64,000 nt of DNA, from the NCBI GenBank assembly GCA_017694845.1, contig JADIMI010000011.1, positions 39,308-103,307 on the forward strand. Direction: 5' to 3'. The position numbers were made by a program, and so were the translations under genes. The notes under the pieces were generated by a model, which worked only from the letters and a program-made list of their open reading frames with translations, was not told where the DNA came from and ran no database searches. Below, one piece after another: positions 1,715-64,000 of this stretch. The DNA is from Candidatus Cryptobacteroides intestinavium. GTDB lineage: Bacteria > Bacteroidota > Bacteroidia > Bacteroidales > UBA932. The number at the start of each line of letters is the position of its first letter. The stretch's first letter is position 1.

Positions 1715-1846
1715 AGATATGCACCGCTGACCCTCAATATACGCTCCCTGCGGCATCATCGGGGAGCATATCTCTATACAAATGTCGAGATATGCGCGGC
1801 CGACCCTCGGTATATGCTTTCTACGGCATCATCCCTGTGCATATCT
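1715..1846. repeat. pair of 59-bp units with inverted-repeat ends, 14 bp apart
   Basis: Two similar units occupy 1715-1773 and 1788-1846. Each starts AGATATGC and ends GCATATCT. The 14-bp spacer lets the right end of unit 1 pair with the left end of unit 2 (GCATATCTC with GAGATATGC, 12-nt loop). Internal sequence is shared (CGACCCTC/TGACCCTC and CGGCATCATC). No ORF explains it. Confidence 0.75.
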
Positions 1847-1878
1847 CCTTTGGATTCCCCGGCGGCTGTCCGATTTGC

Positions 1879-2034
1879 GGACCGCGAACACGAGATTTTT
1901 GTATCTTTCTGAATGACAGGATGTTATGAAAAATGAATGTTCGCGGTCCCTGCTTTTTTGAGGGGACCGCGAACAAGGGAATTTTGTATTGTGTTGTGCC
2001 TCAATGAATTATGAAAAGTTGATGTTCGCGGTCC
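1879..2034. repeat. 156-bp paired-hairpin element, copy A
   Basis: Two 71-bp units (1879-1949, 1964-2034) are separated by 14 bp. Each begins GGACCGCGAACA and ends TGTTCGCGGTCC. Inside are shared words such as ATTTTGTAT/TTTTTGTAT and TATGAAAA. The junction forms a 13-bp perfect stem (1938-1950 with 1963-1975) around a 12-nt loop containing TTTTTT. A second copy with the same layout is at 29765-29920. Confidence 0.85.
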
Positions 2035-2295: not shown

Positions 2296-4575
2296 CTATC
2301 TGGCTGTGGAGAAGGAGTACGGTCTGTCCGCCTTCTTCTTGCCTCTGCCGGTGTCCGGGGTGTCTGACATCGAGAAGCTGATTTCTGCCCCTTCTGTCAG
2401 GTCGTTGTGCTCCAGATAGGTCTTTCCGTATTTTCTGCCGTTGACTTCAATGCCTTCTATATAGATGTTCTCGTCCGAATTGCCCGGAGCATCTATCCTT
2501 ATCTTCTTCCCATCCGGGAGGTTGATTGTCGCGGTATTGAACAGAGGCGATCCTATGATATATTCATCGGTCCCGGGACATACCGGATAGAATCCGAGGG
2601 CGGAGAATACATACCAGGCTGATGTCTGGCCGTTGTCTTCGTCTCCGCAGTATCCGTCAGGCGTGGCGCTGTACAGCCTGTCCATAATCTCTCTGACACG
2701 CATCTGGGTCTTCCACGGCTGTCCGCTCCAGTTGTACATATATACCATATGCTGTATCGGCTGGTTGCCATGGGCGTACTGTCCCATATCCATTACCTGC
2801 ATCTCCCTCATCTCGTGTATCATACCGCGGCTTTCCATTCCCATATAGCTCGGGATTACAAATGTGGAGTCCATCATTTCGTTGAAGGAATCCTCTCCTC
2901 CCATAAGGTCTATGAGCCCGGCAGGATCGTGGAATACACAGAAGCTCCAGTGCCAGCTGTTCCCCTCGCAGAAGTCCCAGCTCCAGTCGGTGCCCTTGAA
3001 GTCAGGCCTGAAACCGCCCTTGTCATCCCTGCCGCACATAAGCCGGAATTCCGGATTGTATACATTCCTGTAGTTCATCGCGTTCTTCCTGTACTGCTCC
3101 AGTTCGGACTCCGGCTTGCCGAGCTTTTTACCGAGTGCATAGATGCACCAGTCATTGTATGCATATTCAAGGGTGCGTGCCACATTCTTCTCTATCCCTG
3201 TATTGTAAGGGATGTATCCGAGGCGGTTGTATTCTTCGAAACCTCTTCTTCCTGCATCTGTCCCTGCAAGTTCTGCATTCGCACCGTGAGTGACGGCCTT
3301 CCACAGGGTTTCGATGTCATAGCCCTCGAGCCCCTTGATGTATGCATCCGCCACGACGGATGCGGAGTTGTTGCCTATCATACAGCTCCTGTGTCCTGGA
3401 CTTGCCCATTCCGGCAGGAACCCGCTTTCAAGATAGGCGTTGACGAGCCCCTCCTGCATTTTTTCGTTCATATCCGGATATACGAGGTTCAGCAGAGGGA
3501 ACAGGCAGCGGAATGTATCCCAGAATCCTGTATCCGTGAACATATATCCGGGAAGCACCTTCCCGTTGTACGGGCTGTAGTGCACACGCTTCCCTGAAGC
3601 ATCGATTTCGGACAGGTCGCGCGGGAACAGTACGGATCTGTAGAGACATGAGTAGAATGTCCTGATATCGTCGATACTGCCTCCGTCTACCTCTATCCTG
3701 CCCAGCACTTCGTTCCATCTGTCACGCCCTTCCCTGCACAGCCTGTCGAAGTCTCCGTCTCCGAGTTCTTTCAGGTTGAGGACAGCCTGGTCTGCACTGA
3801 TGAACGAGGATGCCACTTCAATCCCTACGGTCAGGCCATCGGAGGTGTCGAAGCCGATGACCGCTCCTGCGTGTCCGGCCTTTGCTTCCACTGTCCCGCC
3901 TGCATTCTGTTCTGTCATCTTCCCGTCAGCGACAGTGGCGACGTAGTTGATTTTTGCATCAGGACGGATGACAAACCAGTTCCTGAAATTGTCCGGGACT
4001 CCTCCGGTATTCTTTGTCGTATATCCGATGACAAGATTCTCTTCAGGGATGACCTTGACATACGATCCGTTGTCGAAGGCATCGATGACCAGATATGCCT
4101 TGCCAGGTTCGGAATATGTGATCCTGAATCCGGCAGCCCTTTCTGTAGGGGTCAGCTCGACAGATATGTCGTGGTCTGCAAGATACACGCTGTAATAGTA
4201 CGGAGTGGCGGTCTCGGCCTTGTGGGAGAACCAGCTCGCGCGGCTGTCCTGGTCGAATACAGGGGAGCCGACAGGCATAATGGCAAACTGTCCGTAGTCG
4301 TTCATCCACGGGCTTGGCTGATGTGTCTGCTTGAAGCCTCTTATCTTGTCGGCAGTGTATGTATACGTCCAGCCATCCCCCATCGTGCCGGTCTGGGGAG
4401 TCCAGAAATTCATACCCCACGGGCGTGCGATGGCGGGATACGTGTTGCCTGTGGAGAGTTCGAATTTCGACATTGTGCCCATGAGCACATTCACATAGTC
4501 GACATAGCTCTGCTGCCCCATCGAGGAGATGGAACACAGCGCCAGAGCCATAAGTAATGTAAGGATTCTTTTCAT
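2296..4575 (-). CDS. GH92 family alpha-mannosidase
   Basis: This is a 759-residue exported glycosidase with a signal peptide ending near S-M-G-Q. The N-terminal beta-sandwich begins with Y-V-D-Y-V-N-V-L-M-G-T and the (alpha/alpha)6 domain follows. The family's catalytic signatures are present: E-G-N-S-W-H-W-S-F, which holds the general-acid Glu, and D-E-D-N-G-Q-T-S-A-W, which holds the base Asp residues. GH92 enzymes are calcium-dependent exo-mannosidases that trim alpha-mannosides from yeast mannan or N-glycans. Length and order are normal. It is the last gene of a minus-strand cluster with a DUF4965 lipoprotein and a GH32-like relic. No SusC/D lies in the cluster itself. The exact linkage (1,2, 1,3 or other) cannot be read from sequence. 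Confidence 0.95.
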   Translation of the reverse strand: MKRILTLLMALALCSISSMGQQSYVDYVNVLMGTMSKFELSTGNTYPAIARPWGMNFWTPQTGTMGDGWTYTYTADKIRGFKQTHQPSPWMNDYGQFAIMPVGSPVFDQDSRASWFSHKAETATPYYYSVYLADHDISVELTPTERAAGFRITYSEPGKAYLVIDAFDNGSYVKVIPEENLVIGYTTKNTGGVPDNFRNWFVIRPDAKINYVATVADGKMTEQNAGGTVEAKAGHAGAVIGFDTSDGLTVGIEVASSFISADQAVLNLKELGDGDFDRLCREGRDRWNEVLGRIEVDGGSIDDIRTFYSCLYRSVLFPRDLSEIDASGKRVHYSPYNGKVLPGYMFTDTGFWDTFRCLFPLLNLVYPDMNEKMQEGLVNAYLESGFLPEWASPGHRSCMIGNNSASVVADAYIKGLEGYDIETLWKAVTHGANAELAGTDAGRRGFEEYNRLGYIPYNTGIEKNVARTLEYAYNDWCIYALGKKLGKPESELEQYRKNAMNYRNVYNPEFRLMCGRDDKGGFRPDFKGTDWSWDFCEGNSWHWSFCVFHDPAGLIDLMGGEDSFNEMMDSTFVIPSYMGMESRGMIHEMREMQVMDMGQYAHGNQPIQHMVYMYNWSGQPWKTQMRVREIMDRLYSATPDGYCGDEDNGQTSAWYVFSALGFYPVCPGTDEYIIGSPLFNTATINLPDGKKIRIDAPGNSDENIYIEGIEVNGRKYGKTYLEHNDLTEGAEISFSMSDTPDTGRGKKKADRPYSFSTAR

Positions 4576-18049: not shown

Positions 18050-18262
18050 CCCTGTCATTATGAGCGTTCTTTGTCATTCTGAGCCTCTCTCTGTCATTCT
18101 GAGCCTCTCTCTGTCATTCTGAGCGAAGCGAAGAATCTGATGCAGAAGTACTGTGTGGTACTCCAGATCCTTCACTCCGCCTGCGGCTCCGTTCAGGAAG
18201 ACAATGAATGCCCTTCAGAACGTCCCTTCCTGTCATTCTGAGCGAAGCGAAGAATCTGATAC
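18050..18262. repeat. cluster of TGTCATTCTGAGC-family repeats, both orientations
   Basis: Four forward heads TGTCATT(C/A)TGAGC occur in tandem at 18053-18130, the last continuing into the full GAAGCGAAGAATCTG tail. An inverted copy with the GCCTGCGGCTCCG insert is near 18167-18200, and a full forward copy is at 18231-18260. They fill the gap 18041-18299 between the SusCD operon and the next gene. Confidence 0.85.
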
Positions 18263-18299
18263 AACAACTAAACAACAGTAAACTAAAACGATAAAAACT

Positions 18300-18728
18300 A
18301 TGAAACAGATATTGATATGCCTTATAATGGCGGCAATGTGCCTGTCTTCCTGTAAGCCTGAAATAAAAGATGGCGGCTGTACATACGAAGGCGTCTATAT
18401 AGAGACGGTCACGGGGCTGGTCAATGCGCATAACTATCAGATAACGCTTCCTGGGAGCGGCGGGGAGTTCGACTTCTATCTTGACTGTGTCCGGCCATTT
18501 TACGATTATTACTTTGAAGAAGGGGCACTGTCCATATACTTTGCAGATGAAGTCAGAATGACGGAAATCGAGGGGCGGACTGATGAAGGTTATTACAGGG
18601 CACGGCTCCATCTGTCGGTTCCGGAGAACCGGACTGGGGAGGAACGCTCGGACGTATTTAGACTCGACGATGTCGCGGCGCTTCATTGTGCGATAATAAC
18701 AGTCCGGCAGGACATTATCCCTTATTGA
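18300..18728 (+). CDS. small lipoprotein, function unknown
   Basis: A 142-residue protein with a lipoprotein signal ending C-L-S-S-C. The mature part appears beta-rich and acidic, with segments such as Y-Q-I-T-L-P-G-S-G-G-E-F-D-F-Y and a final H-C-A-I-I-T-V-R-Q-D. This last pattern resembles the edge of Ig-like or BACON-type domains, but I cannot assign it. It is flanked by repeat clusters on both sides and has no operon partner. Confidence 0.6.
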   Translation: MKQILICLIMAAMCLSSCKPEIKDGGCTYEGVYIETVTGLVNAHNYQITLPGSGGEFDFYLDCVRPFYDYYFEEGALSIYFADEVRMTEIEGRTDEGYYRARLHLSVPENRTGEERSDVFRLDDVAALHCAIITVRQDIIPY

Positions 18729-18811
18729 CGAAAAATCTATGTTGTTCGTTATCTTGACGGCATAGCATAATAAGGTATGCCACGACACCTTCGGACATAT
18801 GCCTGTCCGGT

Positions 18812-18975
18812 GCTCCAGATCCTTCACTCAGCCTCCGGCTGCGTCTATGGTGACAACAGAAGACGTTCTGTTACAGATTCTTCACTTCGTTCAGAATGAC
18901 AATGTGATACTGTTCAGAATGACAATGTAACACTGTTCAGGATGACAATGTAACACTGTTCAGGATGACAATGTA
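18812..18975. repeat. inverted TGTCATTCTGAGC-family copies with tandem tails
   Basis: One inverted copy with the CCTCCGGCTGCG insert (from about 18814), one clean inverted copy (AGATTCTTCACTTCGTTCAGAATGACA, about 18876-18902) and three tails of the form ACTGTTCAG(A/G)ATGACAATGT follow each other. They fill most of the gap 18729-19152; the remainder shows no gene that I recognise. Confidence 0.8.
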
Positions 18976-29689: not shown

Positions 29690-29746
29690 TCTCTGTCATT
29701 CCGAGCTCCCTTTCGTTGTCATTCCGAGCGCAGCGAGGAATCTGGA
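29690..29746. repeat. TGTCATTCCGAGC-type repeats (forward)
   Basis: A head-only copy (TGTCATTCCGAGC) is followed by a full copy with the variant tail GCAGCGAGGAATCTGG. They come directly after nuoN. Confidence 0.75.
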
Positions 29747-29764: not shown

Positions 29765-29920
29765 GGACCACAAACAAGCGAAATTTGTATCTTCTTGAAT
29801 AGCAGCACGATATGAAAAGTCGTTGTTCGTGGTCCGTACTTTTTTGAGGGGACCGCGAACAAGGTTATTTTGCATTGTGCTGTATCTCAGTGGATTACAA
29901 AAAGTTGATGTTCGCGGTCC
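29765..29920. repeat. 156-bp paired-hairpin element, copy B
   Basis: Units are 29765-29835 and 29850-29920, 71 bp each with a 14-bp spacer, the same dimensions as copy A at 1879-2034. Unit 1 has GGACCACAAACA and TGTTCGTGGTCC: relative to copy A a G-C pair has become A-T on both arms. Unit 2 keeps GGACCGCGAACA/TGTTCGCGGTCC. The spacer GTACTTTTTTGAGG resembles copy A's CTGCTTTTTTGAGG. Confidence 0.85.
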
Positions 29921-29941
29921 GTAGAGCGTCTCTGCGTACGG

Positions 29942-29994
29942 GGCATCAATCCGTCCGAGGCAACAAAGTCAAGAACACATACTTTTCCCGGTGA
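29942..29994. repeat. 53-bp dispersed repeat (GGCATCAATCCGTC...), copy 2
   Basis: It matches 7418-7470 at 46 of 53 positions without gaps and lies 21 bases after the 156-bp element. Confidence 0.8.
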
Positions 29995-30013
29995 TCCCGA
30001 AGAATCTGATGCT

Positions 30014-30112
30014 CCAGATCCTTCACTTCGCCTTCGGCTCCGTTCAGGATGACAAAATCGGCTCCGTTCAGGATGACACAGGATGACAAAATCGGCTTCG
30101 TTCAGGATGACG
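30014..30112. repeat. inverted TGTCATTCTGAGC-family copies
   Basis: One inverted copy with the GCCTTCGGCTCC insert and several tails of the form GTTCAGGATGAC separated by AAAATCGGCT(C/T)C. With the neighbouring entries they account for the gap 29666-30129, which holds no gene. Confidence 0.8.
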
Positions 30113-61893: not shown

Positions 61894-62092
61894 ATTTCGG
61901 AAGAAAGGGTGCTCGAAAGAGCTTCAGATACTCCGGAAAGGACAAGATCATTGACAATATTGGGAAAGATAACGAGGTAAAGCAACAAAAGAGAAGCAAG
62001 AAACGAGTCAGCTATATAAAAAGATATAGCGGGATGCAATTTCAAGAAAGGCGAGAGCGAGAGCTCTTGTGAATTCACTCAGAACAGAGAGA
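61894..62092 (+). other. 23S rRNA leader without 16S rRNA or spacer tRNA
   Basis: The 200-nt leader contains ATCATTGACAATATTGGGAAAG, resembling the TTCTTTGACAT-type spacer sequences that precede 23S in Bacteroidales. It has neither a 16S 3' end (no CCTCCTTT) nor tRNA-Ile or tRNA-Ala. It probably holds half of the processing stem. Confidence 0.65.

Positions 62093-64000
<1,908 letters not shown>

Follow-up and report, generated by a model that had tools for sequence, protein, structure and literature searches.

A dispersed, probably REP/REPIN-type family of paired 71-bp palindromes in a Bacteroidota genome that encodes RAYT-like transposases

Introduction

RAYT/REP systems, in which short palindromic repeats are associated with tyrosine transposases, are best studied in Gammaproteobacteria. 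The REPINs of Pseudomonas fluorescens SBW25 are dispersed extragenic elements with conserved inverted ends, a variable spacer of fixed length and the capacity to form a long hairpin; the repeat distance in the SBW25 group I doublet is 71 bp (Bertels and Rainey 2011, PMC3116915). BIMEs of Escherichia coli, associated with TnpA-REP, consist of alternating palindromes in intergenic mosaics (PMC8266576). Other described arrangements include TIRtrons (TIRYT) and the “atypical secondary structures” that flank RAYTs of subclass 2.6 in Bacteroidetes (PMC3733652, PMC6006769). Here, we describe a family of paired palindromes represented by two copies in a 64-kb stretch of DNA from Candidatus Cryptobacteroides intestinavium (hereafter the window).

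Results

The window contains two copies of a 156-bp element (positions 1879-2034 and 29765-29920), comprising four units of 71 bp, each with 12-bp inverted ends and a 47-bp interior. The units of a pair are separated by 14 bp, and the four arms follow the order arm, 47 bp, arm, 14 bp, arm, 47 bp, arm, with the 12-bp arm GGACCGCGAACA in alternating orientation. On the + strand, copy 1 consists of unit 1 (type A, 1879..1949; GGACCGCGAACA, 47 bp, TGTTCGCGGTCC), the spacer CTGCTTTTTTGAGG (1950..1963) and unit 2 (type B, 1964..2034). Copy 2, on the same strand, consists of unit 1 (type A, 29765..29835; ends GGACCACAAACA and TGTTCGTGGTCC), the spacer GTACTTTTTTGAGG (29836..29849) and unit 2 (type B, 29850..29920). 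The number of matches to the 12-mer ends in the window was reached in none of 100 shuffles. The folding predicted for the 156-bp element is beyond chance because the DNA folding z-scores are strongly negative: -5.6 for the complete 156 bp, between -2.4 and -5.3 for individual units (-5.3 and -4.2 for units 1 and 2 of copy 1) and between -5.5 and -7.9 for the junction. The junction hairpin of copy 1 (1938..1975, + strand; z = -7.9) is formed by the inner arms of the two units around the T-rich spacer, which provides the loop. For the single-stranded 156-nt element, the two-hairpin form and the junction-hairpin form are both predicted to be strong. Thus, the dimensions of the element, its inverted ends and the alternative folds (a long hairpin for each unit or a junction stem with a T-rich loop), all proposed in an earlier sequence-only reading of the window, were borne out, and the ends occur far beyond chance.

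Both window copies lie between convergent genes: a 204-aa and a 759-aa open reading frame (ORF) around the copy at 1.9 kb, and a nuoN-like gene and a tRNA-Met gene around the copy at 29.8 kb. The sequence-only reading had noted no transposase nearby; no RAYT-type gene was found near either copy, and both RAYT-like genes of the genome are on other contigs. The intergenic region at 1.9 kb also contains a cluster of a second palindromic family (1715..1847, no strand assigned; GAGATATGC/GCATATCTC), which is part of the intergenic mosaic and is frequent in the window. A repeated “tail” (GGGCATCAATCCGTCCGAGGCAACAAAGTCAAGAACACAT, 29941..29980, + strand) is present to the right of copy 2, and the right flank of many other copies has the same tail. 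Repeats of the TGTCATTCTGAGCGAAGCGAAGAATCTGGAG / AGATCCTTCACTTCGTTCAGGATGACA type occur at 2098-2180, 18100-18900, 29700-29740 and 30000-30110, often adjoined by units, and the window ends in the start of a 23S rRNA gene (62088-64000). The element matched no Rfam family.

The host genome (G000) is a 2.4-Mb draft in 89 contigs, about 89% complete. Exact 12-mer arms GGACCRCGAACA numbered 100 + 99 genome-wide, compared with 1-2 for the reversed control. Pattern searches and BLAST with the 156-bp element identified about 40 full pairs together with numerous single units. In the part of the genome that was fetched, there were 100 units at 58 loci (42 paired and 16 single), with more units elsewhere, and the genome-wide estimate is at least 100 units, with about 45 pairs and some singles, at about fifty loci. 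In most pairs, a type A unit precedes one of type B, and the 14-bp spacer is commonly CCACTTTTTTGAGG (34 pairs compared). Two loci, C13:339 and C67:487, are near-identical duplicates that include the flanks. Among 92 distinct units, Watson-Crick pairing holds at 11 of the 12 end pairs in 85 or more; positions 13-18 vary widely, and the interiors diverge in most positions while the arms are nearly invariant. This pattern of conservation points to recognition of the arms.

At the 47 loci that could be scored for gene orientation (those with ORFs of 110 aa or more on each side), the neighboring genes were convergent in 33, tandem in 10 and divergent in 4, an excess of convergent pairs (binomial p about 1e-10 against one quarter) compared with a local baseline of 4 convergent among 22 gaps without units. 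The copies are embedded in mosaics with other palindromic repeats. No target-site duplications of 2 to 8 bp were detected beyond those in shuffled flanks, except for one 5-bp case among 58, and pairing between the outer flanks beyond the arm did not exceed that with shuffled partners. Among outward flank tetramers, GTTG and GTAG are the commonest, but they lie on the 3' side of the arm, inside shared flanks; units of this family were not found to carry the 5' GTAG foot described for REP hairpins.

The sequence-only reading had interpreted a double change in unit 1 of copy 2 (pair 6/66, G-C to A-T) as compensatory and, hence, as evidence that pairing is selected. The same unit carries an unpaired G-to-A change at position 8, and because this change is unmatched, its pairing is worse, not preserved. 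Pair 6/66 is the only arm pair that varies much, being G-C in 50 of the 92 distinct units, A-C in 14, G-T in 13, A-T in 9 and other combinations in 6; where the variable base is altered, the change is usually on one side only (27 of the 92). The two sides of this pair in unit 1 were not significantly associated (Fisher p = 0.17, 42 pairs). Changes at the variable base cluster on the two inner arms, with exactly one altered in 27 of the 42 pairs (p = 0.11), and these changes make a junction hairpin with one mismatch frequent among the 42 two-unit loci of G000. Because changes in the inner arms are mostly single and unit 1 shows no significant association between its ends, these data provide no evidence of selected pairing, and we reject the compensatory interpretation. 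The G-C to A-T double change is most simply explained by two hits at a mutable base. The weak trend toward one altered inner arm could mean that a mismatch is tolerated or even preferred; cleavage of E. coli REPs requires an unpaired stem position (PMC8266576).

The host genome encodes two Y1_Tnp proteins of 304 and 371 aa (46% identity), on contigs C8 and C13. The RAYT-like protein matched Pfam Y1_Tnp (E = 4e-10), and the top NCBIfam match of the host proteins was REP_Tyr_transpos (REP-associated tyrosine transposase), under the cut-off. An alignment of 46 sequences from the genus showed that both histidines of the HxH motif, the catalytic-type tyrosine and the following asparagine are invariant. 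AlphaFold2 modeling of the C8 protein (pLDDT 92.6) yielded 4er8, E. coli TnpA-REP with a bound REP hairpin, as the best PDB match (E = 1e-5). The host proteins thus combine the Y1 HUH fold, HxH and catalytic tyrosine that characterize RAYT / TnpA-REP. Of 250 species sampled from the genus, 204 have genes for RAYT-like HUH transposases. The RAYT gene lies between inverted repeats of 13 bp or longer at 18 of 40 loci compared with 1 of 20 controls, and double hairpins of about 106 bp were found near 27 of 52 RAYT genes compared with 2 of 20 controls, one of which was a run of N. Paired palindromes around RAYT genes are thus common in the genus. In two other species (G227 and G106), the repeats beside the RAYT genes are mostly local; the 100 kb of G106 that was fetched contained one further copy. 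Scanning named genomes with the RAYT protein retrieved only distant matches from Verrucomicrobiota. Distant Y1 transposase relatives (L207-L241) are multi-copy within single assemblies of this phylum, some labelled Akkermansia.

The sequence-only reading had suggested a search for a RAYT-type transposase with matching ends, and the result is mixed. A degenerate 71-bp unit is located about 120 bp past the stop codon of the C8 RAYT gene, yet both RAYT genes of the genome are flanked on both sides by other families, GCATATCTC at C8 and GTGCGCAGAGACG at C13. The single unit beside one of two RAYT genes could be due to chance, with a rough estimate of about 6% based on about 60 loci over about 2000 genes. 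Copies of the GAGATATGC/GCATATCTC family lie on both sides of the C8 gene (L046:1225-1325 and 2790-3050), and the C13 gene is flanked by double hairpins of about 106 bp, GTGCGCAGAGACG..CGCCTCTGCGCAC (L047:1138-1244 and 2465-2571). The two flanking families have a common middle resembling ATATACGCTC...GTGGCAT. The middle part ACGCTCTCAGTGGCAT of the C13-flanking hairpins recurs beside the RAYT gene of another species (L120), so it is the spacer, not the arm, that is common to the two species. Because two other families flank the C8 and C13 genes, neither is clearly the partner of the 71-bp family; this partner may be the C8 protein, a RAYT absent from the draft or one lost from the genome.

Among the 250 genomes of the genus, the junction pattern was present only in G000, G053 and G140, and when 100 relatives were searched at the DNA level with the 156-bp element, the only match was one of 35 bp at the junction, in G053. 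In G140, the copies (one pair and one single unit) are confined to a 2.2-kb stretch (L267:73-2284, contig G140:C8) that is 98.5% identical to G000:C58 and is either a recent transfer, which appears probable, or assembly contamination. The family is therefore found in a single species of the 250 sampled, apart from one probable transfer: the search of the genome and its relatives that had been advised from sequence located about fifty loci in the former and almost none in the latter. What the species have in common is related layouts with other arms. G053 has four-arm elements that include the arm sequence GTTCGCGGTCC with different interiors, and its RAYT gene, interrupted by a stop codon, has four-arm elements of 164/165 bp on both sides. 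The latter share the arm order, and nearly the spacing, of the 71-14-71 layout but differ in the arm (CCCTGGCGCAGA), and two further copies are dispersed in the G053 genome.

An IS3-family element (NCBIfam transpos_IS3, E = 2e-74) is inserted at about C23:1812-3356 (L193:1812-3356), within the inner arm of a pair, with ends TGAGCTGTACC../..GGTACACCTCA and GTC on both sides (target duplication GTC/GAC). Two other IS3-family ends, at the end of contig C84 and the start of C9, break the arm at the equivalent base and probably represent one copy split over contigs. Both copies target the arm at the same base, as REP-targeting insertion sequences do; published examples insert likewise, with ISPsy8 (IS3 family) leaving three bases (PMC1525189). 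Because it lies inside the arm, with its own ends and a GTC duplication, this element is a guest and was rejected as the parent transposase.

Discussion

The copy number, the location between convergent genes, the RAYTs of the genus with their flanking repeats and the REP-style targeting by an insertion sequence jointly support the view that the 156-bp element represents a REP/REPIN-type repeat family that resembles BIMEs, and we consider this assignment probable. The family is palindromic, extragenic and of high copy number, with units often paired in mosaics, as in REPs and BIMEs, and it has the two conserved inverted ends, variable interior of fixed length and hairpin potential of REPINs; the units are 71 bp, not the short (20-40 bp) palindromes with a 5' GTAG (or CGTC) tag of classical REPs. 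By analogy with E. coli TnpA-REP and the IS200/IS605 enzymes, we infer that the family is mobilized by a RAYT through a single-strand mechanism. The single-stranded element would fold into either two 71-nt hairpins or a single strong junction hairpin whose loop is T-rich; a RAYT-like HUH (Y1) transposase would recognize the folded arms, and its tyrosine would cut the DNA, with the unit being copied or moved to other intergenic sites.

Several other origins have to be weighed against the REP/REPIN assignment. Duplication of a single 156-bp segment within the window, for which the presence of just two copies there might speak, and which the sequence-only reading had allowed for in the event that no others existed, is refuted by the about fifty loci across the genome and their divergent interiors. 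The same reading had left the choice between REP/BIME-type and MITE-type elements open, and of these likenesses the former is strengthened by the evidence listed above. A MITE, here a non-autonomous element derived from a classical DDE insertion sequence and bounded by 12-bp terminal inverted repeats, would account for the short inverted termini, the high copy number and the lack of an internal transposase; the near-complete absence of target-site duplications weakens this explanation, the sole transposase found between two units is the IS3-family guest, and we regard a MITE as quite improbable. Selection at each site for a role in the host, as a 3'-end RNA stabilizer, a processing signal or a bidirectional terminator between convergent genes, would fit the strong preference for convergent genes and the strong predicted folds. 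Neutral REP insertion gives a convergent location too, however, pairing is often broken at the one variable arm position, and nearly all related species lack the family. With the T-run inside the loop instead of after the stem and a negative terminator scan, an intrinsic terminator was rejected, and a host role in general seems unlikely.

The copies might also be immobile remains of a family whose partner RAYT was lost or is missing from the draft, spreading only by recombination and gene conversion. The other families flanking both RAYT genes, the incompleteness of the assembly and the near-identical duplicates at C13:339 and C67:487 all argue for such a state, which does not conflict with a REP origin; the intact arms and constant dimensions of many copies and the unit adjoining a RAYT gene argue against it. 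We consider this a serious possibility, albeit one that falls short of probable. More tentatively, the family could belong to a new class of RAYT-dependent repeats in Bacteroidota, in which the mobile unit would be the four-arm 71-14-71 element, switching between two long hairpins and one junction hairpin, and the arm and its partner RAYT would have co-diverged between species with the layout fixed (G000 and G053); we hold this proposal to be somewhat doubtful.

The genus carries RAYT-like genes in most sampled species, many surrounded by paired palindromes with arms that differ from gene to gene, and these differences provide a natural series in which to test how the match between a RAYT and its repeat is maintained. 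The arm-targeting IS3-family element implies that the repeat also shapes the landing sites of other mobile DNA.

Compared with the REPINs of SBW25, which the family resembles in all the general features outlined above, the sequence and the phylum differ, the two units are themselves paired across a 14-bp spacer, no RAYT of its own was found with the family on both sides, and the compensatory changes that are common in SBW25 do not reach significance in this family. TIRtrons, TIRYT and the subclass 2.6 structures are similar in having RAYT-like proteins with HxH and Tyr-x-x-x-Asn motifs and long inverted repeats around the gene, with copies elsewhere, as singles and dimers. The RAYT-like proteins here are about 300 aa long, compared with medians of 179 for subclass 2.6 and 238 for subclass 2.1; the TIRYT / TIRtron motif GGGGWSAS is not matched exactly (GGGGACCG at the junction), and repeats across the gene occur at the 18 of 40 genus loci. 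E. coli BIMEs share the alternating palindromes in intergenic mosaics, and their TnpA-REP is the best structural match of the local RAYT, whereas the units here are much longer, without a 5' GTAG foot or a bulge conserved across all copies. The IS3-family element resembles ISPsy8, IS1397 and ISKpn1 (PMC1525189) in interrupting the repeat at one fixed base and generating a 3-bp duplication, in a different host phylum and with only two copies, one split over contig ends. The kind of repeat is known from other bacteria, and the four-arm layout and the host group appear to be undescribed.
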